NCBI RefSeq assembly: GCF_006483455.1 | Contig: NZ_PPPU01000013.1 | Location: 1 to 64,000 of the forward strand | Direction: 5' to 3' | DNA from: Methylomonas koyamae | Lineage (GTDB): Bacteria; Pseudomonadota; Gammaproteobacteria; Methylococcales; Methylomonadaceae | Length of the DNA stretch: 64,000 nt | Shown: in pieces, positions 12,312 through 64,000 of the stretch | Position numbering within the stretch: the stretch's first letter is position 1 | Layout of the letters: each line of letters begins with the position of its first letter | Notes under the pieces: model-generated | Told to the model about the DNA's origin: nothing | Database searches by the model: none | What the model saw: only the letters and a program-made list of their open reading frames with translations | Position numbers and translations under genes: made by a program

Positions 12312-13849
12312 CTAAGGTAACAACTGTAAAGCCCGGTCAGCCTGAAGCAAGCCGAACCCCGTGACGTAATCGTAACCCGGCTCGCCCATATCCAAGGCAC
12401 TGCGCCGCAAGGTGTCGTAAAGTTGTGACGGTGTTAAAACGTGGTCTTTTCTTGCTGCTGCTTGTAATAGCAAACCGCCATTCCCGCCGCATGAGGCGCA
12501 GCATCTGAGGTACCGGTGAAATTGGGTTTGCCGTCTTTTTCCACATCTGGCCGGGTCTTGGAAAAGAAACTGGTATTGACGTTGGTCGGAGCCATCGCTA
12601 CGACGTGCTTACGGGCAACGGGCTCCGACAAACGCTGGCCGTGGTTGTCGAACAAGATCGGCAAGCCGCCGGGGGAGGAGTAATAACTCGGTTGCAGCGG
12701 CTTCTGGCCTGGCGTGGCTTCGACGACGCCGACGCTGAATGCGCCTTCGGCATTGGCATGACCAAACACGGAAGTAACCGATTTTGGCTCGTTGCGATAT
12801 TCGTCGATATTAGGGTGTTCACTGGGTAGTGAACTGCCACTGAGGATATATTTCAGCAAACCGGGTGCGGGTCCGGCCGCTTTCAGGATACGTAAACCGA
12901 CGGTTTTGCGCTGGCGATTGCCTTTGTTGTCGAATCCGACCACTTCGATGGGGTCGCCGCCCAGGTTATCGGTCGAACCGCCAATGACCCAGGCTTTACT
13001 GACATGCTTACAGGCCGGGTCGTCGTAAACCACCACATCCAGATCACTGGCCGAGCCGCTGCCGCCGCTGACTGATTTGGCCGGTTGGTCCCATTACAAA
13101 CTCAACACAGTGAAAGCGTCGGCGCCGACAGTAATCGTTTGGCAGGTATCGGCTTTGCGGGGATCGAGATTGAAGTCGTGGGCGACGCCGTGTTTTTCGC
13201 TCAAAGGGTAGGTACCACTATCGACAAACGCGGATTGATAGCTGTTGAGACCAGCGTTGCCCGCCGACGTAAAAAAGGCGATGCCGCGTTCGAATACCAG
13301 GCGATCGATGGTTTGAGTCGCGGCGCTGTCCTGAAACATCGGTTCGGTGAAATATACCGCATCGTCGACGATGATCTGCGCGCCGTGCTCGGCCACCCGA
13401 TTCAAGGCTTGGGTGAAGTCATCGGCATTGTCGCCCATGGCGTGAAACAGCAATTTGGCGTTGGGCGCCAGGTCGTGAATCACTTCCAGCATCGCCCGGC
13501 CTTCATCTAGGGGCTTTTCATTTTGGCAATTGGCTTCTTTCAGTACTGTCACTGCCGGCGGCAACTCGCCATTGGCTTGTCCCTCGTCCGCGCCGCCCAG
13601 ACAATTGAAACTGTCGCTGATGACGGCAACGGTAGTGCCTTCGCCGGTCAAATCGTAAGCGGCTCTCGCAAAATCGGCGTGGATTAACGCATTGCCCTGA
13701 CTAATTACCGTTTCGTATGAAGCTCCAGATTGAGCGTGCGTTAAATGCAATGTCGAAATGCACAAGGCTGTAAGTCGCAATAACCAACGGGCATTGCGCT
13801 TTATTACTTTTCGATTACCCAGAATCATATAAATCTCCATCAATTCCAT
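12312..13849 (-). pseudogene. S8/S53-like serine peptidase, broken by a stop and a frameshift
   Basis: Three collinear pieces read as one exported subtilase-like protein. Piece one (13849-13094) has a signal peptide, VAVISDSFNCLGGA with a catalytic-type Asp, DEGRAMLEVIHDLAP where subtilisins have their His motif, and FFTSAGNAG. It ends at an in-frame TAA at 13094-13096, and the same frame continues as WDQPAKSVSGG. Piece two ends with GTSDAAPHAAG around the nucleophile Ser. A frameshift near 12480 leads to the C-terminal GEPGYDYVTGFGLLQADRAL in another frame. The DEGRAM motif suggests the S53-like branch. Inactive as read. Confidence 0.75.
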
Positions 13850-24584: not shown

Positions 24585-24893
24585 TTACATTCTCAAGTGA
24601 TCCAAAATCAGATCACGCATTACTTCAAAATCGACACCTTCCGACTCGCAGCAGACTCGAAACGAAAACGGCGACGTGTCGTCACTTATCAACCATTCCA
24701 AGGCATCCGCCTTTTGTTCGTCGCAGACCCGTAAGTCTTTCAGCGAACTCAACATCGCCAGCAACAAACGGTAACGCAGCTCGTCGAATTCCGATTCCGT
24801 GAATTGAGGCAGTGCGTCCCAATCGATCACGAAGATATCGAACTGTTCGACGCTGGGATGAACCTGCACCGCTGTGTCTTTGCGCATTTTCAT
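24585..24893 (-). CDS. Hypothetical acidic protein
   Basis: A 102-residue protein with a strong ribosome binding site (AGGAGG, 5 bases before ATG). Acidic, with DIFVIDWDALPQFTESEFDELRYRLLLAML in the middle (described by position 20-49) and FEVMRDLILDHL at the end; mostly helical. No family recognised. The leader upstream folds like the switch-type leaders found at 58-64 kb, which suggests shared control. Confidence 0.6.
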   Translation of the reverse strand: MKMRKDTAVQVHPSVEQFDIFVIDWDALPQFTESEFDELRYRLLLAMLSSLKDLRVCDEQKADALEWLISDDTSPFSFRVCCESEGVDFEVMRDLILDHLRM

Positions 24894-24956
24894 GAGATCC
24901 TCCTAAATTAGACGGAGGACTCCCCCTAAACGGAGAATTCCCCCGTTTAGGGTTTA
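24894..24956 (-). ncRNA. Switch-type leader (decoy RBS), minus-strand copy
   Basis: On the minus strand, CCCTAAACGG (24952-24943) pairs with CCGTTTAGGG (24933-24924), a 10-base outer stem. The enclosed loop has a purine run GGGGGA (24944-24939). The following TCCTCC (24919-24914) is complementary to that run and to the GGAGGA of the ribosome binding site (24903-24898). This is the same three-part logic as the leaders at 58-64 kb. Confidence 0.55.
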
Positions 24957-25056
24957 AATTGACTGCCCGTCGCCGGGAGTCGTTAGATATGCTGATTATT
25001 TAGGGAAGCCAGCTACCTCCTTGAACGTTAGCGCGAACCGTTATATCAAAAACCGG

Positions 25057-57423: not shown

Positions 57424-57761
57424 TGGCTGTATCGTACGTACCTGAGCGCGGGGATTTGGTGTGGATTGCGTTCGATCCTCAAGCAGGCCACGAACAAGCG
57501 GGGCGCCGCCCCGGCCTGGTCGTTACGCCACGCACTTATAACGTCAAAGCCGGGTTAGCGTTGATTTGCCCTGTAACAAGTCGAGTTAAAGGATATCCGT
57601 TTGAGGTACCATTACCGGTCGGCGACCGTGTGAGTGGTGTGATATTGGCGGATCAGATTCGGAGTCTGGATTGGGCGGCGCGTCAGGCCGAAAAGATATC
57701 TATGGTGGACGGGGCGGTATTGGCCGAAGTCTTGGCCAAAATCGAGGCTCTTATTCAATAA
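57423..57761 (+). CDS. mazF: MazF-type mRNA interferase toxin
   Basis: A 112-residue endoribonuclease: YVPERGDLVWIAFDPQAGHE, the family signature GRRPGLVVTPRTYN and a Thr-Ser-Arg stretch CPVTSRVKGYPF, ending with an alpha helix VLAEVLAKIEALI. All expected motifs are present, so the toxin should be functional. 57762-57959 after it has no gene. Confidence 0.9.
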   Translation: MAVSYVPERGDLVWIAFDPQAGHEQAGRRPGLVVTPRTYNVKAGLALICPVTSRVKGYPFEVPLPVGDRVSGVILADQIRSLDWAARQAEKISMVDGAVLAEVLAKIEALIQ

Positions 57762-57959
57762 TTCAGCCCGTGGACCAGATATTACCTTGCATTGGCTTCG
57801 GTAAGTCAAATAGCGGCTTGCTCCTGTTAAGGCTTCGGGGATATCGCCAAGTGTTTAACCATTCTACCGATTCTTCGAGCAACATGCTCAGGTACCCAGT
57901 CGCCGCTAAAATCCACTTCCACTTCACAATTTCTTTTGTTATAAAGGCCACTAATATTT

Positions 57960-58154
57960 AGCGTTAATCAACGCTGAAGATCCTGCAACAGCAGGCGCTC
58001 CGTCTTTAGGCGGCGGGAACCGATGTTCCCGTACTGAGTGCGTCAATCTCAGCTTTCAATCCATGCGTCATTCAAGACGCCTATACCACCCAACGGGGAA
58101 CGATCCGATTCCCCAATGGGAGTCCGTCGTTCCCTTTTTTTAAGGAGAACGATT
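57960..58154 (+). ncRNA. Long structured leader 1 (six hairpins plus switch), bet
   Basis: Six hairpins follow one another: 57960-57975, 57982-57995 (CCTGC/GCAGG), 58000-58013 (CCGTC/GGCGG), 58015-58030, 58034-58052 and 58065-58080. The switch follows: outer stem CCCA (58089-58092) with TGGG (58117-58120) around a hairpin, then TCGTTCCC (58127-58134) complementary to GGGAACGA (58096-58103) and to the ribosome binding region GGAGAACGA (58144-58152). A run of seven T (58135-58141) follows, so the first pairing also looks like a terminator. A second copy of the architecture is at 60715. Confidence 0.75.
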
Positions 58155-59177
58155 ATGGCTCAAAGCAATCCCGGCAAAAATACCTCCGATACGCCTACTC
58201 GCCCGGCAATGCCGGATGCTGCGAAACAAACCTATGGCCTGACGGAGCAATCCTGGAAAGTATTGACAGAAGTCACCTTTCCCACAGCCAAAACCGCAGA
58301 AGCCATCTTGATGGCTCTGGATTATTGCAAAACCCGAAAACTCGACATCTTCAAAAAACCGGTCCATATCGTCCCGATGTGGAGTACCGCTTTAGGCCGC
58401 AATGTCGAAACCGTCTGGCCCTCCATCACGGAAATCCAGACCACCGCGTCCCGAACCGGTGTTTGGGCTGGCATGGATCGACCGGTCTGGGGGCCCGATA
58501 TCACCAGAACCTTTAAAGGCCGCTACAAGGACGACAACGAGCAATGGCAGGACGTCGATGTCAGCGTAACTTTTCCCGAATGGGTAGCGGTTACCGTGTA
58601 CCGGATCGTCGGCGGCCAACGTTGCGCCTTTACCGAGGAAGTCTATTGGCTTGAAGCCTACAGCACGGCCGGCGGTAAAAATTCGCGAATACCAACCGCG
58701 ATGTGGATCAAGCGCCCCAAGGGGCAATTGGCCAAATGCGGTAAAGCGGCGTCTTTGCGTGCGGCCTTTCCGGAAGAATGCGGTTATGCCGCCGAGGAAA
58801 TGGAAGGCAAAATCATTGATATCGACGGTTCCGATGTAATCGATATCGATCCGTCGGCCGAACCGGCTACCGCGGCACCCGAGCAACAACCTCAAGCTGA
58901 AGTCAAGCCGGAGGTGATCGATGCATCTAAGCTCCATCCAAATTTGATTAAGGCAGTTGAAACCCTGATTAAGCGGACAAAAGATGCAAACGCATGGGCG
59001 GCGGCCGAAGAATTCATCGCCAGCCGATTTACTGGTGTTGACCTGATCTATGCCCGTGCGGAATTAGACAAAGCCAAACCGAAACCCGCGTTAACGCATA
59101 CCGAAGGCATGACTATTCCGCCGCTATCTGCGAAAGACGCCGAGCTTAGCAAGGCTCGTCAAGCACTCAGAAATTAA
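58155..59177 (+). CDS. bet: Bet/RecT-family single-strand annealing recombinase
   Basis: A 340-residue recombinase starting at the ATG with AAGGAG upstream. The core (about 25-200) has AEAILMALDYCKTRKLDIFKKPVHIVPM (described by position), SITEIQTTASRTG, and RPKGQLAKCGKAASLRAAFPEE, typical of phage recombination protein Bet. The C-terminal 100 residues are a Pro/Ala/Glu-rich linker and a small helical part. Together with the YqaJ nuclease at 59612 it would carry out lambda-Red-like recombination, as on SXT-type elements. It has a long structured leader. Confidence 0.9.
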   Translation: MAQSNPGKNTSDTPTRPAMPDAAKQTYGLTEQSWKVLTEVTFPTAKTAEAILMALDYCKTRKLDIFKKPVHIVPMWSTALGRNVETVWPSITEIQTTASRTGVWAGMDRPVWGPDITRTFKGRYKDDNEQWQDVDVSVTFPEWVAVTVYRIVGGQRCAFTEEVYWLEAYSTAGGKNSRIPTAMWIKRPKGQLAKCGKAASLRAAFPEECGYAAEEMEGKIIDIDGSDVIDIDPSAEPATAAPEQQPQAEVKPEVIDASKLHPNLIKAVETLIKRTKDANAWAAAEEFIASRFTGVDLIYARAELDKAKPKPALTHTEGMTIPPLSAKDAELSKARQALRN

Positions 59178-59195
59178 ACCGACTTTCGGTTTTTC
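59176..59195 (+). terminator. Terminator after bet
   Basis: AAACCG (59176-59181) pairs with CGGTTT (59187-59192), followed by TTTC. It overlaps the bet stop codon. It separates bet from the next leader. Confidence 0.65.
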
Positions 59196-59198
59196 TCA

Positions 59199-59267
59199 TT
59201 TACCCATCCAGGGCGTCATGATTCGCCCTGTGGGCTATTCGTGACGCTCTTCTGTTGGAGAAACGTC
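59199..59267 (+). ncRNA. Switch-type leader 2
   Basis: CCCA (59203-59206) with TGGG (59231-59234) encloses CAGGGCG/CGCCCTG (59209-59215, 59224-59230). TCGTGACGCTC (59239-59249) is complementary over 11 bases, with wobbles, to GGGCGTCATGA (59211-59221). Its GTGACG also pairs with CGTCAT (59264-59269), which includes the start codon. The decoy copies the real start: CGTCATGA occurs at both places. Confidence 0.7.
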
Positions 59268-59615
59268 ATGAATGAAATCACTACCTTCGATCAATCCCTC
59301 AACCGGATACCCAGCTTTACCGACTGGAGCCGTTACGACTCACCGACCGTCCTGCGCCGCTATGGGCCGGGATTTCTTGATAAAGCGCTGGATCCGGACA
59401 CGGAAACCCGGCTATTTCATCGCCGGCATTCCTACGCCGACTTGGTCAGTATCGCCGATACCTTAGGCGGCATCTGCACTCTATCGCCGGGTTGCACCTT
59501 GTTGCTATTCGACGATGTCCGTCTCGCACAGCGTTGCCACGCGGTGTTGAAACAACGCAAATTAGAAGGCGTGCTGCACGGATGTCACATCCGGATCGAC
59601 GGAGAGTTCGAATGA
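59268..59615 (+). CDS. Hypothetical protein upstream of the exonuclease
   Basis: A 115-residue protein starting MNEITTFDQSLNRIPSF, with DPDTETRLFHRRHSYADLVSIADTLGG in the middle and TLLLFDDVRLAQRCHAVLKQRK at the end. Not recognised. Its stop overlaps the start of the nuclease by 4 bases, so it is in the recombination operon. GGAG precedes the start within the switch-type leader. Confidence 0.6.
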   Translation: MNEITTFDQSLNRIPSFTDWSRYDSPTVLRRYGPGFLDKALDPDTETRLFHRRHSYADLVSIADTLGGICTLSPGCTLLLFDDVRLAQRCHAVLKQRKLEGVLHGCHIRIDGEFE

Positions 59616-60610
59616 AAATCGTCGATATCGCCCAACGCAGCGATGCGTGGCCGCTATGGCGATCGCAAGGCGTAACCGCCAGTGAAGCAGCAATCATTCT
59701 GAACCGCTCGCCTTACAAAACGCCTTGGCGCTTGTGGGCAGAACGGGTCGGCATCGTCCTGGAAGCCAACCTCGACAACCATCCATTGGTTCGTCGCGGC
59801 CGCGAACTGGAAACGAAGGCGGCGCAATGGTTCGAAGCCACGTGTGACGAACTGTTGTTGCCATTGTGCGGCGAGTGCGATCAATACCCGTTGATCCGTG
59901 CCTCGTTCGATGGCATTACCGGTAACGGCGAACCCGTCGAAATCAAATGCCCGCATCCCAGCACCTACGAAAACGTGGTACAGGAACGTGAGCAGTCGGT
60001 TGCCTACCAATTGTATTGGGTGCAAATGCAGCAGCAGTTGTTGGTCGCCGATGCCAAAAGAGGCTATCTGTGCTTCTATCTCGACGACCAGCATGTCAAG
60101 GTGTTCGACATCGCGCGCGATGACGCCTTTTTGGTGACTTTAATCAACGCGACGATCACGTTTTACGGTTGGGTCATCACCAAAAAAGAACCGCCGAAAG
60201 ACCTGAAGCGGGACTTGTATTTGCCTGAAGGCGACGCCGAAATTCAATGGCATCGACTGGCGGCCGAATACCGTGCCCGGCAGAAGAAACTGGAGGCATT
60301 GAAAGCCGAAGCCACCCAACTGGCCGAACTGCAAGCCAAAACCGAAGCCCAATGGGTAGAGCAAATGGCCGATTACGTCATCGCCGAACATTCCGGCGTG
60401 CGTGTCTGTCGAAGCGTCAGCCAGGGGGGTATCGATTACAAGGCGGCTTTAACGGCCCTGCTCCCGCAACTGACTGAGGCGGAGCTGGCCCCGTACCGAA
60501 AGGCTCCGGCCTCGCGGGTACGCGTGACGTGCCGAGACGACAATGGCAAAAACGCGCAAGTAGCGTTTGACCCGGATTCCTTGGCCGTGACGGAAAGCAG
60601 TTGGTTTTGA
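59612..60610 (+). CDS. exo: YqaJ-type viral exonuclease
   Basis: A 332-residue nuclease of the lambda exonuclease/YqaJ fold: SDAWPLWRSQGVTASEAAIIL, RRGRELETKAAQWFE, YPLIRASFDGITG with catalytic Asp, and EIKCPHPSTYENVV with the Glu-x-Lys pair, then YWVQMQQQLLVADA. A coiled segment and a C-terminal domain (about 245-330) follow. It would resect 5' ends for Bet to anneal. The ATG overlaps the previous stop; an open frame extends further upstream but lacks support. Confidence 0.88.
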   Translation: MKIVDIAQRSDAWPLWRSQGVTASEAAIILNRSPYKTPWRLWAERVGIVLEANLDNHPLVRRGRELETKAAQWFEATCDELLLPLCGECDQYPLIRASFDGITGNGEPVEIKCPHPSTYENVVQEREQSVAYQLYWVQMQQQLLVADAKRGYLCFYLDDQHVKVFDIARDDAFLVTLINATITFYGWVITKKEPPKDLKRDLYLPEGDAEIQWHRLAAEYRARQKKLEALKAEATQLAELQAKTEAQWVEQMADYVIAEHSGVRVCRSVSQGGIDYKAALTALLPQLTEAELAPYRKAPASRVRVTCRDDNGKNAQVAFDPDSLAVTESSWF

Positions 60611-60628
60611 AAACACGTTAGCAACGAA

Positions 60629-60660
60629 CGAACACTACCTCGGTAGTGTTCGTTTCTTTA
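60629..60660 (+). terminator. Terminator after the exonuclease gene
   Basis: CGAACACTACC (60629-60639) is complementary to GGTAGTGTTCG (60642-60652), followed by TTTCTTT. A strong bidirectional-looking hairpin ends the bet-exo block. Confidence 0.8.
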
Positions 60661-60714
60661 AGTCGATTCAGGGCTTGTTTTAAGGTGTAAGCCAAGCCCT
60701 CAACCGACTTTTCT

Positions 60715-60917
60715 AGCGCTATCGTCATCGATACGCTGAAAATCCTGCAGAGCAGGCGTTCCGTCTTCAGGCGGCGATCAAGGCATGTCCTTGGTGGTAC
60801 CGGGTGCGTCAAACCCGGCTTCGTCCGGCCGTTGCTATCAACGGCCTATTTTATAACCCGAATGGGGCATCACGCCCTATCGGGCCATCGGTGCCCCCTG
60901 ATTGTTGGAGGTGCACT
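60715..60917 (+). ncRNA. Long structured leader 3 (six hairpins plus switch)
   Basis: Second copy of the architecture at 57960. Hairpins lie at 60715-60737, 60744-60756 (CCTGC/GCAGG), 60761-60774 (CCGTC/GGCGG), 60780-60792, 60800-60818 and 60827-60846. Stems 1, 4, 5 and 6 differ in sequence from copy 1 but still pair; stem 5 keeps the loop GCGTCAA. The switch follows: CCCG (60857-60860) with CGGG (60881-60884); GGGGCA (60864-60869) and its complement TGCCCC (60892-60897), whose neighbourhood GTGC (60891-60894) also pairs with GCAC (60913-60916) beside the start. Confidence 0.75.
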
Positions 60918-61148
60918 ATGACAAAATCAGAAGCTGTTTGGCTGTTTTTAACCGATCTTAAGAACCGCCGGGATACTACCCGTCGCCTGTTCGAGATGGC
61001 TAAAACCGAGCCCACCCTGGTCACGACGTATATCGCGTCGTTGCCGGACAATTGGCAACACCGTGACGATCCCGAAGTCGACTTGCTCAAGCAGCTGCAC
61101 GCAGTTGCGCTGACCGCGATCGCCGAACGTGCAGTGTCTGTCGGTTGA
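60918..61148 (+). CDS. Hypothetical small helical protein
   Basis: A 76-residue protein, MTKSEAVWLFLTDLKNRRDT at the start, fully helical by pattern, with LFEMAKTEPTLVTTYIASLPDN. The ATG is preceded by GGAGG. Not recognised. It converges tail-to-tail with the gene at 61163-61399 (14 bases between), a pattern repeated by the next pair. Confidence 0.6.
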   Translation: MTKSEAVWLFLTDLKNRRDTTRRLFEMAKTEPTLVTTYIASLPDNWQHRDDPEVDLLKQLHAVALTAIAERAVSVG

Positions 61149-61162
61149 ACGTCAACCGTAGG

Positions 61163-61399
61163 TTAACTGTCGGTCAACTGATCGAAAGTGACCTCGCCAC
61201 GCATTAAAGGACTGCTACCCATTTCCAACGCCTGCAGTAAATCGGCCAGGAACACCGGGGAGCACGCCTGAACCAAGGCGACATCGTACTCCGCTGTCGT
61301 TTTAATCGTATTGACCGCGTAACCGCGCCTGGCGTTGTTGCGTTGTAAGCGGCGAAATTCCGCTCGGGTCAATCGGACTTTACCCGCATGTTTGATCAT
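61163..61399 (-). CDS. Small hypothetical protein, paralog 1
   Basis: A 78-residue protein, MIKHAGKVRLTRAEFRRLQR at the start and TIKTTAEYDVALVQACSP in the middle. It aligns with the product of 61771-61980 (MIRLGDKLRLSDREQHAF; PKTVAEYNAALQVA), so the two are a paralogous pair. Both are on the minus strand at the end of a plus-strand gene. CGAGG precedes the ATG. Function unknown; the basic N-terminus could bind nucleic acid. Confidence 0.6.
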   Translation of the reverse strand: MIKHAGKVRLTRAEFRRLQRNNARRGYAVNTIKTTAEYDVALVQACSPVFLADLLQALEMGSSPLMRGEVTFDQLTDS

Positions 61400-61446
61400 G
61401 CAAACCTCGATCGGTATTGATGTTTAATATCGTTTGATGATTACCC

Positions 61447-61509
61447 ACCCCACCCAGGGAGACCTCTCCCGATGGGGGCGTGTCTCCCTTTTTTATAGGA
61501 GATACGACC
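61447..61509 (+). ncRNA. Switch-type leader 4
   Basis: CCCA (61453-61456) with TGGG (61473-61476) encloses GGGAG/CTCCC. GTCTCCC (61482-61488) is complementary to GGGAGAC (61457-61463), followed by six T. GTGTCTCC (61480-61487) pairs over 8 bases, one wobble, with GGAGATAC (61498-61505), the ribosome binding site. Decoy and real site resemble each other. Confidence 0.72.
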
Positions 61510-61800
61510 ATGAACCTCAATTCTGTTTCGAAATTGCCACGCCGCGAACCCTCCATGTCCACGGCGGATAAGATCCTCGAACTGGCCGCGTTAAAACCGG
61601 CCACGGTCGCAGGCGCTTTATTGAATCATCCCGATATCTTCCGGGATCTCAACGAGTCAATTGCCACCACCTTGGTGCTATCGCTCGTCGACCGCGGCCA
61701 AGCCGACACCTTACGCCAATTGATGGCGAGCAAGGCGATCGGCGAAGCTAAAGCCCACCTTCTGGCCGAATTACTCCTGTTGGAGGCATTCGCCGAGTAA
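61510..61800 (+). CDS. Hypothetical small protein
   Basis: A 96-residue protein with a mostly helical C-terminal part: DKILELAALKPATVAGALLN, DLNESIATTLVLSLVDRGQ and LLAELLLLEAFAE. GGAGATACG precedes the ATG within the leader. Not recognised. Its end overlaps the convergent gene 61771-61980 by 30 bases. Confidence 0.55.
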   Translation: MNLNSVSKLPRREPSMSTADKILELAALKPATVAGALLNHPDIFRDLNESIATTLVLSLVDRGQADTLRQLMASKAIGEAKAHLLAELLLLEAFAE

Positions 61801-61980
61801 CACGGCTTGCAGCAAGCGGGATTCGGCACTCGTGTCCTTATCCCGCACGGCATCGGCCGCGACTTGCAAGGCCGCATTGTACTCCGCCACCGTCTTCGGC
61901 GGCGCGGCGCGATCGGTCATCACCCGAAAGGCGTGCTGTTCCCGGTCGCTTAAACGTAGTTTATCCCCTAGTCGAATCAT
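61771..61980 (-). CDS. Small hypothetical protein, paralog 2
   Basis: A 69-residue protein, paralogous to the one at 61163-61399 (see MIRLGDKLRLSDREQHAF and TVAEYNAALQVAADAV). Shared features are a basic N-terminus and a conserved T-x-A-E-Y-x-x-A-L block. GAGGG lies before the ATG. The paralogy supports it being real despite its length and the overlap with its neighbour. Confidence 0.55.
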   Translation of the reverse strand: MIRLGDKLRLSDREQHAFRVMTDRAAPPKTVAEYNAALQVAADAVRDKDTSAESRLLQAVLLGECLQQE

Positions 61981-62032
61981 ATCGGAGCCCTCAATGGTTT
62001 AGACCATCGTAACCGCTATGACTCATTAATCA

Positions 62033-62111
62033 ACCCCGCAAGGGAGGTTCGCTTCCCTACCGGGGGCGCACGCCTTCTATTTCGGGAGTCACTCTTAAAT
62101 CAGGAGGCAGT
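62033..62111 (+). ncRNA. Switch-type leader 5
   Basis: CCCCG (62034-62038) with CGGGG (62061-62065) encloses AGGGAG/TTCCCT (62041-62046, 62053-62058). GCCTTCT (62072-62078) is complementary, with wobbles, to GGGAGGT (62042-62048) and to AGGAGGC (62102-62108), the ribosome binding site of the AAA ATPase gene. Confidence 0.65.
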
Positions 62112-63053
62112 ATGTACCAACAGTATTCCGTCGCCGATACCTTCGGCGTATCCGCACCGGCCTCGATGACCGTCGAAGGCTTTGTCCCGGCAAATAATCC
62201 ATTCGTGCCGGTCCAAAAACCGTATGTGTTTCGGCGCGAGCCATTGCGCGACGTCCTGGCGTTCTTTCGGAATCCGAATGGCGATGGACTGTATATCACC
62301 GGACCCACGGGCTCCGGTAAAACCTCGTTGGTTGAGCAAGCCGCCGCCCGCTTACACTGGGGTGTGCATGCCGTTGCCGGTCATGGCCGGCTTGAGTTCA
62401 ACGATTTGTTGGGCCAATTCGTCTTAACCGGCAACGGCACGATGAAATGGACCGACGGCCCGTTGACCAGCGCCGTGCGCCACGGCCACGTGCTCTTGCT
62501 CAACGAAATCGATGCGACCGACCCGGCCGAGTTGCTGGGTTTGAACGATATCGTCGAAGGCAAACCGCTGATGATTGCGGCCACCGACGAAGTCGTCATG
62601 CCGCACCCGAAGTTCCGTCTGGTTGCAACCGGCAACAGTGCCGGCGCCGGCGACCAGTCGGGCTTGTATCAAGGGGTGATGCGTCAAAGCGTGGCCTTTA
62701 TGGACCGCTTTCGTTTGATGGAAGTGGGCTATCCGGAACCGGACGACGAAATGAGTATGCTGGAACGCACGGTCCCGACCATGCCCCTGAGCATTCGGGA
62801 ACGCATGATTCAGCTGGCCAACGAGATCCGCAAGGTCTTTATTGGCGGCAGCGATTCGTCTGGTCTGCTCTCGATCACCATGTCGACCCGCAGCTTGTTG
62901 CGTTGGGCCCAGCTCAGTGCCAACTACAAAGGTTCCCCGAACGCCCTGGCCTATGCCTTGGATCGGGCGCTGGTTCTGCGGGGGGATGCGGCCGAACGCG
63001 AGGCCATCCATCGGTTGGCGCAAGACGTGTTCGGCAGCGATTGGCAGGTGTGA
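62112..63053 (+). CDS. MoxR/CobS-like AAA ATPase
   Basis: A 313-residue AAA+ ATPase. Walker A is YITGPTGSGKTSLVEQ (about 61-76), Walker B HVLLLNEIDATDPAEL (about 128-143), and sensor 1 FRLVATGNSAGAGD. It resembles the ATPase halves that work with von Willebrand-domain partners (CobS/CobT, MoxR). The next gene starts 1 base after its stop. The order ATPase, small protein, DUF3150 protein suggests a chaperone/remodelling complex on the element; the partner is probably beyond the window edge. Confidence 0.85.
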   Translation: MYQQYSVADTFGVSAPASMTVEGFVPANNPFVPVQKPYVFRREPLRDVLAFFRNPNGDGLYITGPTGSGKTSLVEQAAARLHWGVHAVAGHGRLEFNDLLGQFVLTGNGTMKWTDGPLTSAVRHGHVLLLNEIDATDPAELLGLNDIVEGKPLMIAATDEVVMPHPKFRLVATGNSAGAGDQSGLYQGVMRQSVAFMDRFRLMEVGYPEPDDEMSMLERTVPTMPLSIRERMIQLANEIRKVFIGGSDSSGLLSITMSTRSLLRWAQLSANYKGSPNALAYALDRALVLRGDAAEREAIHRLAQDVFGSDWQV

Positions 63054-63054
63054 C

Positions 63055-63510
63055 ATGTCGGTGCTGTATTGGCAAGTCGAATGCCGCGCACCGCAACCGG
63101 TCGTCTTTGCCGTAAACCACGCCTTACATCAGTGGCGATCTTGTATCGACCGCTGGCAGCAAGACCTTGGTTTGAGTTATGTGGGTTGGCCGGATTGGGA
63201 CTCGCTGCTGCGTTTAAGTGAAATCGGCCGCGGCTTTGACACCAGCGGCCAAATACACCCGGAACACGGCATTGCCCCCTGGTTATGGCTAACGGCGTTG
63301 AAAAAAGCCGGCTTCGTCGGCATCGACGTGGGCATTGTCACCGATGCGTCTCGCGAAACCTCGACCAACTTACACCAGGAATCCGAGGTGTTACAGCTAT
63401 TCGGTACCGACCTAGTGCAGATCCGGCCTGTGGCTGAAGCGCTAGGCTTGCTGTTGCCGTCCTTGGATCTGGTTGCCGCTTTAGGCGAAATGGACAGTGA
63501 CTGGTTTTAA
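63055..63510 (+). CDS. Hypothetical protein after the ATPase
   Basis: A 151-residue protein, MSVLYWQVECRAPQPVVFAV at the start. Features include FVGIDVGIVTDASRETSTNLHQ and LGLLLPSLDLVAALGEMDSDW. It begins 1 base after the ATPase stop, so it is probably coupled. Not recognised. A longer upstream extension of the frame overlaps the ATPase and is not supported. Confidence 0.55.
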   Translation: MSVLYWQVECRAPQPVVFAVNHALHQWRSCIDRWQQDLGLSYVGWPDWDSLLRLSEIGRGFDTSGQIHPEHGIAPWLWLTALKKAGFVGIDVGIVTDASRETSTNLHQESEVLQLFGTDLVQIRPVAEALGLLLPSLDLVAALGEMDSDWF

Positions 63511-63531
63511 CCGGTCACGGTTTTTACTTTT
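63509..63531 (+). terminator. Terminator after 63510
   Basis: AACCG (63509-63513) pairs with CGGTT (63518-63522), followed by a T-rich tract (TTTACTTTTTT). Similar in form to the terminator after bet. Confidence 0.5.
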
Positions 63532-63557
63532 TTGAACCCGCCTTTCAACAGGCTTTA

Positions 63558-63620
63558 TCAACCCGGAAGGGGCTTACACTGCCCTCCGGGGCTGTCGTAG
63601 GCCTCTTTTAAGGAGGCACT
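63558..63620 (+). ncRNA. Switch-type leader 6
   Basis: CCCGG (63562-63566) with CCGGG (63586-63590) encloses a GGGC/GCCC hairpin. GTAGGCCTCTT (63597-63607) is complementary over 11 bases, with wobbles, to AAGGGGCTTAC (63567-63577), and its GCCTC (63601-63605) also pairs with GAGGC (63613-63617) of the ribosome binding site. Confidence 0.72.
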
Positions 63621-64000
63621 ATGACGCAGTGTAATCAAATATTGGACCGTGTGGTCTTGATCAAAATCCAAGCCAACATCTACGGCGCGCGGAAAAAATT
63701 GCGCAAAGAAGATCTGGTACTGGCCGACGGCAGTGAATTACCGCCCGAGGACTTGGCCAGCTTAGGCTCGAAACGTTTGCTCGATCCCGACCAGTTGGCG
63801 GACTTCAATCGCTTGAAAAAAGCGGCGGAACGCCACTGTTTACGGGTCGGCACCCGCTTCATGGGCGGTTTTGTGGTGCCGGTCGAACACGCGGACGCCA
63901 TCGTGAGCGAGCTGGAAAAAGTCGCTCAGGAATTCGTGGTTAATAAAGCGAAGTTCCTGGCCGGCTACGACGACGCCGTGCGCGATTGGATCAAAAAGCA
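63621..64000 (+). CDS. DUF3150-like protein (partial, runs off the window)
   Basis: The first 126 residues of a protein that continues past the edge. The start has AAGGAGG upstream. It opens MTQCNQILDRVVLIKIQANI, with a basic segment (YGARKKLRKEDLVLADGSELP), then LKKAAERHCLRVGTRFMGGFVVPVEHADAIVSELEKV. This matches remembered features of DUF3150 proteins, which follow a MoxR-type ATPase on mobile elements. Function unknown. Confidence 0.7.
   Translation, partial: MTQCNQILDRVVLIKIQANIYGARKKLRKEDLVLADGSELPPEDLASLGSKRLLDPDQLADFNRLKKAAERHCLRVGTRFMGGFVVPVEHADAIVSELEKVAQEFVVNKAKFLAGYDDAVRDWIKK

Follow-up and report, generated by a model that had tools for sequence, protein, structure and literature searches.

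The window analyzed here comprises 64,000 nucleotides (nt) of Methylomonas koyamae (assembly GCF_006483455.1, contig NZ_PPPU01000013.1, positions 1 to 64,000 of the forward strand; the contig is termed C4 below) and carries towards its end the DNA-processing genes of a mobile element, named in the following by the first base of their start codon. Pfam searches identified RecT (58155), YqaJ (59612), AAA_5/CbbQ_C (62112), DUF3150 (63621) and, past the window edge, DUF4942 (68759), and returned no family for 59268, 60918, 61510 and the frame at 62842. Gene 59268 encodes 115 amino acids (aa), and its 3' end overlaps the YqaJ-type exonuclease gene 59612. Including VWA and RadC, whose names in this element are taken from annotated relatives, the leader-bearing module consists of bet/exo/CobS-like ATPase/DUF3150/VWA/RadC. 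Six genes (58155, 59268, 60918, 61510, 62112 and 63621) are preceded in the window by leaders that, judged by their sequence, belong to one family of a two-hairpin RNA design found on plasmid and mobile-element genes, which probably serves as an on/off switch for translation.

The general leader order is CCCN, a short spacer, GGGGNNNN (mimic of the Shine-Dalgarno (SD) region), a loop, CCCC, NGGG, a short spacer, NNNNCCCC (antisense), a spacer, GGAGNNNN (real SD region) and ATG. On folding, two tandem hairpins form, hairpin 1 being composed of an outer stem and an inner GGGG:CCCC stem, and hairpin 2 of antisense and SD (termed the OFF structure). A competing fold pairs mimic with antisense and is pseudoknotted with the outer stem (the ON structure), and the complementarity of the mimic GGGG to CCCC within hairpin 1 provides a third competing helix. 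Sequences, coordinates and complementarities that the initial annotation had quoted for two leaders (GGGAGAC/GTCTCCC/GGAGATAC at 61457-61505 and AAGGGGCTTAC/GTAGGCCTCTT/GAGGC at 63567-63617) are exact, as are the T-runs noted behind the decoy pairing (7 T at 58135-58141, 6 T at 61489-61494). All six genes, which it had placed under one design, are matched by a covariance model termed R2, and five of the leaders (58155, 59268, 60918, 61510 and 63621) additionally score between 32.5 and 39 in a pseudoknot scan free of fixed letters. The 62112 leader is the weakest member, with poor mimic pairing and a scan score derived from an unrelated fold; its pUP202 ortholog scores 32.0 (Table 1).

Table 1 Leaders and four-hairpin motifs on contig C4, with their segments and the evidence for each
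Feature	Position	Strand	Segments	Evidence
Leader of RecT/Bet-family gene 58155	58081..58157	+	S1 58089-58092 with 58117-58120; mimic 58095-58103; antisense 58127-58135; T-run to 58141; real SD GGAG 58144-58147, then AACGA	sequence, scan and folds, R2 47.3 bits (R2 training row), orthologs
Leader of gene 59268	59196..59270	+	S1 from 59203; antisense 59239-59250; SD region 59251-59267	sequence, scan and folds, R2 30.1 bits, orthologs, Pfam
Leader of gene 60918 (76 aa)	60850..60920	+	hairpin 1 60857-60884; antisense GGTGCCCC 60890-60897; SD region 60898-60917	scan and folds, R2 49.7 bits (R2 training row)
Leader of gene 61510 (96 aa)	61441..61512	+	hairpin 1 61448-61477; mimic GGGAGAC 61457-61463; antisense GTCTCCC 61482-61488; T-run 61489-61494; SD region GGAGATAC 61498-61505	sequence, scan and folds, R2 41.7 bits
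Leader of CobS/MoxR-like AAA ATPase gene 62112	62027..62114	+	hairpin 1 CCCCG..CGGGG; antisense GCCTTC; extra hairpin; SD GGAGGCAG	R2 23.4 bits, E 0.0019; scan score 24.0; orthologs
Leader of DUF3150 gene 63621	63554..63623	+	hairpin 1 63562-63590; mimic AAGGGGCTTAC 63567-63577; antisense GTAGGCCTCTT 63597-63607; SD region 63608-63620, including GAGGC 63613-63617	sequence, scan and folds, R2 33 bits, alignment A3
Lone member before open reading frame 24585-24893 (102 aa, no Pfam family)	24891-24959	-		R2 33.7 bits, E 2.9e-4 genome-wide
Four-hairpin motif upstream of bet leader	57970..58061	+	conserved GGCGYTCCGTCTTYAGGCGGCG and TGCGTYAA loop	
Four-hairpin motif upstream of 60918 leader	60731..60822	+		
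Four-hairpin motif upstream of 67049 leader	66854-66945 (L009:10854-10945)			

The pairings exceed chance expectation in related loci. In a scan for H-type pseudoknots restricted to open reading frames (ORFs) with an SD-like word before ATG (loci L001-L011 and L019 excluded), 231 of 2280 sense-strand regions score at least 36 compared with 10 in dinucleotide shuffles, and 525 compared with 96 score at least 32. On the other strand, 20 of 1223 regions versus 12 reach 36, and 75 versus 37 reach 32; the other strand thus shows a mild excess, and at least one real leader, 24891-24959, sits there in the window. The 525 regions were reduced to 222 leaders, selected by a pseudoknot score of at least 32 alone, by dropping similar ones and those with very short spacers. 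Pairing of the antisense with its own SD (-8.07 kcal/mol) is stronger than with the SDs of other leaders (-5.69 kcal/mol; n=222, z -15) and better than the median in 179 of 222 (z -12.3 for the 105 leaders with scan scores of at least 36), whereas the wrong-strand control yields z +1.0 (n=49). The reverse test started from 170 non-redundant ortholog leaders picked solely for the antisense:SD hairpin, 23 of which were dropped because of an SD unpaired upstream in the last 42 nt or segments that were too short. In the remaining 147, antisense fits its own upstream 43 nt (-10.99) better than those of other genes (-7.92) or its own shuffled sequence (-6.68), with z -15.7 and 127 of 147 better, compared with z -0.9 in the wrong-strand control (n=204). 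The inner stem of hairpin 1 behaves likewise (own -8.08 versus -6.27, z -10.8, 116 of 148 better) after removal of 49 of the 222 leaders lacking CC in the 5' arm of the outer stem and of 25 of the resulting 173 with a short loop. Both pairings, antisense:SD and mimic:antisense, are thus real and were tested without circularity; the persistence of both complementarities despite sequence divergence, proposed in the initial annotation, is borne out by these two tests and by covariation.

When 24 VWA leaders are aligned with MAFFT without regard to structure, the ON structure retains 92.9% of its pairs and the OFF structure 90.9%. The OFF structure contains 8 double-change cells, a number reached by none of 500 shuffles; such changes are few among VWA leaders because these orthologs are similar. 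A covariance model of the OFF structure built from VWA leaders alone (R1) gave 270 matches at E<=1 in 42 loci, nine of them on the other strand, each with E above 0.05. The best 150 of these 270 matches, of which 134 lie outside the training set and 16 overlap training leaders, are all on the sense strand and come from 39 loci; in 143 an ATG opening at least 40 codons is located at or within a few bases of the match end, and the products behind the 150 form 36 clusters. Since overlapping loci repeat some sites, the alignment of the 150 contains 143 distinct rows. Across these rows the OFF structure displays 465 double-change cells versus 129 in shuffles and a score of 0.453 versus at most 0.069 when slid, figures that come from an alignment fitted to that structure. 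Mimic:antisense pairing, which lies outside the model, reaches 133 double-change cells versus 58.6 +/- 5.0 in shuffles and a score of 0.288 versus at most 0.135 when slid, so that covariation in homologs, named beforehand as a test, is present also for this helix. Relative to shuffles, A-C and G-U cells amount to 0.42 and 0.69 in the OFF structure and to 0.45 and 0.79 in mimic:antisense; in both, A-C is more depleted than G-U, as for a sense-strand RNA.

In the 4.5 Mb genome, R2 yields at least 13 matches at E<=1, every one on C4: twelve belong to this element, including all six leaders described above, and one is the minus-strand member, which terminates at the ATG of its ORF. Eleven of the twelve element matches finish on the third base of the start codon and one (74332-74415) a base short of it, with a single sense-strand match at each start codon. 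Members past the window edge begin at C4 64822, 68691, 70603, 71233, 71943 and 74332, and two weaker ones, C4 66967 and 68004, were matched in a contig-only search. Genes behind R2 matches include bet, 59268, 60918, 61510, ATPase, DUF3150, VWA, DUF4942 and RadC. Genome match counts are lower bounds, because only part of the first-look candidates was scored (150 of 416 here, 16-80 per genome in other searches). With the own genome counted, R2 has matches at E<=0.001 in at least 29 of 61 relatives and at least 27 of 274 genomes of the class, and at E<=1e-4 in at least 8 of 299 genomes of the phylum. A first, loose pattern was discarded as uninformative (114 forward and 100 reverse genome places versus 167 and 157 for the reversed control).

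Relatives of the ATPase at E<=1e-40 were found in 961 plasmid records, most often of Klebsiella, Escherichia and Salmonella. The annotated relatives inspected share exo, ATPase, DUF3150 and VWA, usually accompanied by bet or recT and by radC, and differ in gene order; by eye, leaders precede most module genes in Methylomonas, Methylobacter, Vibrio and Aeromonas elements and are few or degenerate on an Allochromatium plasmid. Leader presence in six annotated loci depends on the upstream gap: none of 22 module genes with a gap of at most 25 nt carries a leader, compared with 49 of 67 at 50-130 nt and 25 of 42 above. The leader hence marks the start of a translation unit, not every gene. This count covers module genes only, leaves out L014, L018, L021 and L022, and takes a gene as leader-positive if a match with E<=0.1 ended at most 6 nt from its start or no more than 150 nt away in the same frame. 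Of the 93 sense matches in the six loci, 71 lie within 6 nt of an annotated start. Intergenic gaps of the module are themselves bimodal, with 22 at <=25 nt, none at 26-49 nt and 109 at >=50 nt (L012, L013, L015, L016, L020 and L023).

The design also heads unrelated genes in Methylococcales plasmids, the IncA plasmid pRA1, SXT-like elements and DUF3577/RadC-type elements. Twelve regions picked for R2 matches contain 89 matches at E<=0.05, and in three of them Pfam assigns proteins encoded behind leaders to families such as DUF3577, DUF3275, DUF6094, DUF6573, DUF932 and RadC. Among 53 match ends in six loci, 34 are ATG, eight have an ATG one or two codons on and 11 have neither. Given these varied downstream genes, and with ATPase and DUF3150 genes in only one of the 12 stretches (L117), the family is not confined to a single set of genes. 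In L118, L119, L120, L123, L124 and L125, leaders stand before DUF3577, DUF3275, DUF6094, DUF932, RadC and methyltransferase-like genes. Group II introns occur within leader-bearing elements (L013 8209-10576; L120 568-2923), the one in L120 adjoining a leader-bearing helicase-like gene. A CxxC...CxxC small protein, recognized by eye (L009:12070-12651, gene at C4 68070), is found together with RadC in four of the 12 leader-bearing stretches (L118, L120, L121 and L125) and is a candidate common factor.

The helices, their covariation, their position at the start codon and their distribution are direct observations. As to function, we consider it probable, at roughly 0.72, that the leaders are cis-acting RNA translational attenuators heading most translation units of the DNA-processing module of the element. 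Four segments would act in order: (1) the mimic GGGGNNNN, (2) CCCC in hairpin 1, (3) the antisense NNNNCCCC and (4) the SD region GGAGNNNN before AUG. In the presumed OFF state, 1:2 would be paired inside the outer CCCN/NGGG stem and 3:4 would hide the SD, whereas in the ON state 1:3 pairing across the outer stem would form an H-type pseudoknot and free segment 4. As segment 3 has room for one partner only, the two states should be mutually exclusive. We infer this assignment of ON and OFF, as well as a lowering of initiation by SD pairing in most members and its restoration by 1:3 pairing. The balance may be set by an element or host factor or by co-transcriptional folding; since mimic and antisense are transcribed before the SD, the RNA might start in an ON state and later relax to OFF. 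The mutually exclusive switch of the initial annotation accordingly stands as the best reading for translation, in line with the attenuator reported for SXT bet (PMC4542580, in the passages concerned) and the family member carried by SXT-like relatives.

Several results speak against this interpretation or limit it. Among the 24 close VWA orthologs the ON structure contains 2 double-change cells, a number that 29 of 500 shuffles reach. In the 143 rows, 82.1% of mimic:antisense cells are paired, no better than after one-column slides (83.6 and 81.6%), and 164 of 500 shuffles match the number of mimic:antisense pairs with a double change; the support for this helix comes from its count of double-change cells and from its score. 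Helix S1 is paired in 87% of cells, and R1 does not recover the bet leader of the SXT-like locus L015 at E<=1. R2 was trained on rows that include five C4 sites (58081, 60850, 64822, 68691 and 71233); the other eight of the 13 genome matches are outside its training set, though orthologs of some are perhaps inside. Crude energies (n=173) average -29.7 kcal/mol for OFF and -25.6 kcal/mol for ON, the latter including an assumed penalty of 7 kcal, so that ON lies 4.1 +/- 7.0 kcal/mol above OFF; this closeness is compatible with a switch and insufficient to name the default. In nested-only folding the accessibility of the SD is only modestly reduced, at 0.351 versus 0.395 for other ORFs (p 0.01) and 0.422 for shuffled sequences. 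Two further ideas were rejected. Pairing with the start codon catches the eye in individual leaders (C4 68691-68761, for example) but shows no general enrichment (26 of 173 versus 17.5 expected; 68 versus 61.7 by gapped duplex), and avoidance of cross-pairing among the leaders of one element was not seen (-5.74 with others within the element, -5.64 between elements).

Part of the evidence would be equally expected of static attenuators, in which hairpin 2 fixes a low level of translation, hairpin 1 insulates or stabilizes the mRNA and mimic pairing assists folding or arises incidentally, rather than being a regulated state. The SD hairpin ranks with the best-kept helices (90.7-94.7% paired), leaders stand at the start of most translation units and no trigger is known. 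Such a design would leave unexplained that mimic:antisense double changes exceed both shuffles and slides without being modelled, and that the mimic fit is found also in leaders chosen without it, so we regard it as unlikely. Still less is to be said for transcription attenuation, where mimic:antisense (or the S1 3' arm with antisense) followed by a T-run would act as an intrinsic terminator: terminator-like matches do occur at 58118 and 61474, and at least five consecutive T follow the antisense in 49 of 173 leaders, but most leaders lack a T-run, and on visual inspection T-rich stretches are often found next to the SD. Region-wide, 13 terminator-like matches versus 7.5 +/- 2.9 in shuffles, both strands counted, represent a small excess. 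The transcriptional part of the switch envisaged in the initial annotation is thus unsupported, transcription termination being a minor or absent component, and as a full explanation it appears very improbable.

The neighborhood of ssb, bet, exo and other DNA-processing genes, as well as the suggestion that STAXI RNAs possibly act as single-stranded DNA (PMC2864571, in the passages concerned), would fit elements working at the DNA level, namely single-strand promoters, recombination sites or replication starts during conjugation. This we consider the most remote of the alternatives. One helix contains the SD and stops near the start codon, the depletion of A-C beyond G-U applies to the sense strand, and R1 matches are sense-oriented throughout the best 150, with nine of all 270 on the other strand. 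Single-strand promoters of the Frpo/ssi kind would carry -35/-10-like elements within the folded strand; a simple-consensus scan of 57800-63700 identified a single sigma-70-like promoter site versus 3.8 expected, located on the minus strand inside a gene.

Returning to translational attenuators, a more far-reaching and tentative idea is an element-wide RNA regulon, in which one trans signal would simultaneously flip dozens of leaders that are diverged in sequence and identical in build. The signal could be an RNA-binding protein encoded by the element, a cue from conjugation or DNA damage, or a timed pulse of co-transcriptional folding. IncA/C, SXT/R391 and DUF3577/RadC-type elements might then switch their recombination module at translation, beyond known transcriptional control, a possibility to which we give somewhat less than even odds. 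The IncA plasmid pRA1 and the SXT-like elements in which leaders were seen are related to major drug-resistance carriers. Control of bet/exo in such elements is explained, in the relevant passages of a review, by the transcription activators SetCD/AcaCD and one translational attenuator; if a common RNA switch heads most translation units of the module, a regulatory layer was missed. The covariance model offers a means of annotating these leaders.

Upstream of some leaders lies a second motif of four consecutive hairpins with a conserved GGCGTTCCGTCTTYAGGCGGCG and a TGCGTYAA loop (Table 1). The loci collected hold 44 distinct copies, some nearly alike, and 16 of 24 predicted pairs show compensated changes among 28 aligned copies. 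It has no Rfam match in the window and may be a separate regulatory RNA or a mark of transcript starts.

Databases were searched for a described class. No Rfam 15 family reaches its gathering score at leader positions in the loci scanned, where only group II introns outside the leaders were detected. STAXI, which the initial annotation had brought up, does not hold as an identification, for want of a model match and because of its different build: at gathering score there is no match in the window, L012, L013, L015, L016 and 8 other loci, at E<=10 none in 57700-64000 and L015+L016, and at E<=5 none in L118, L120, L124 and L125. Its model is likewise silent in 21 of 21 genomes, but it was silent in the control genomes too. 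Whalefall-1 matches the exo leader of L016 (17995-18042) below threshold (20.3 bits versus a cut-off of 37; E 1.0 in L015+L016, 0.0033 in a 201-base search with four weaker families), the resemblance consisting of a short hairpin followed by GAGG; in this genome it has no match over cut-off and four weak ones, none at leaders, and we take the single sub-threshold match as chance and reject whalefall-1 as a relative. A snoU82P match below threshold falls on the other strand of part of an L125 leader (E 1.0). Rfam contains a DUF3577 motif; DUF3577-like genes behind leaders in three loci (Pfam was run on one) show no Rfam match there, and literature searches on that motif returned nothing relevant. 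In the open-access papers searched, no leader family of this kind is described, and the sole related statement concerns the SXT bet attenuator.

An SD-hiding translational switch is a known kind of device, and attenuation at the place of one member is already published; the open-access literature searched contained neither a mimic strand nor a pseudoknotted alternative of this kind, and no account of such a spread over unrelated genes. If true, a single RNA design would serve unrelated genes while each copy keeps its own three-way complementarity, which would be unusual. The closest link concerns L015 and pR997, which, judged by gene content, are probably SXT/R391 relatives. R2 matches the bet leader of L015 at 12572-12642, ending at bet 12640 (E 5.4e-4), and the pR997 bet leader differs from it at 2 of 71 positions. 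A family member thus stands directly upstream of bet, where, by gene and position, a review places a strong translational attenuator of SXT from a 2013 paper (PMC4542580); unlike that attenuator, which the passages concerned describe for bet, the family heads many unrelated genes and carries a mimic strand. With STAXI (RF01728), which comprises two or usually three tandem pseudoknots, the leaders share pseudoknots near DNA-handling genes of mobile elements, but they have one pseudoknot per start codon with an SD mimic, and the STAXI passages (PMC2864571) describe no SD mimics. The leaders further resemble attenuators of the ermC type in their alternative helices, one of which hides the SD, a likeness of complementarity and covariation, not of function. 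Those attenuators consist of four segments with two alternative folds, one hiding the SD, and their ON pairing is 2:3, whereas in the leaders the presumed ON pairing is 1:3 and pseudoknotted with the outer stem. In the ermC type, a ribosome that stalls on a short leader peptide flips the fold. The repZ switch of IncI/IncB-type plasmids, in which a single replication gene is controlled by an antisense RNA, is likewise a plasmid pseudoknot that opens an otherwise hidden SD; the leaders described here would extend this principle from one replication gene to many genes.

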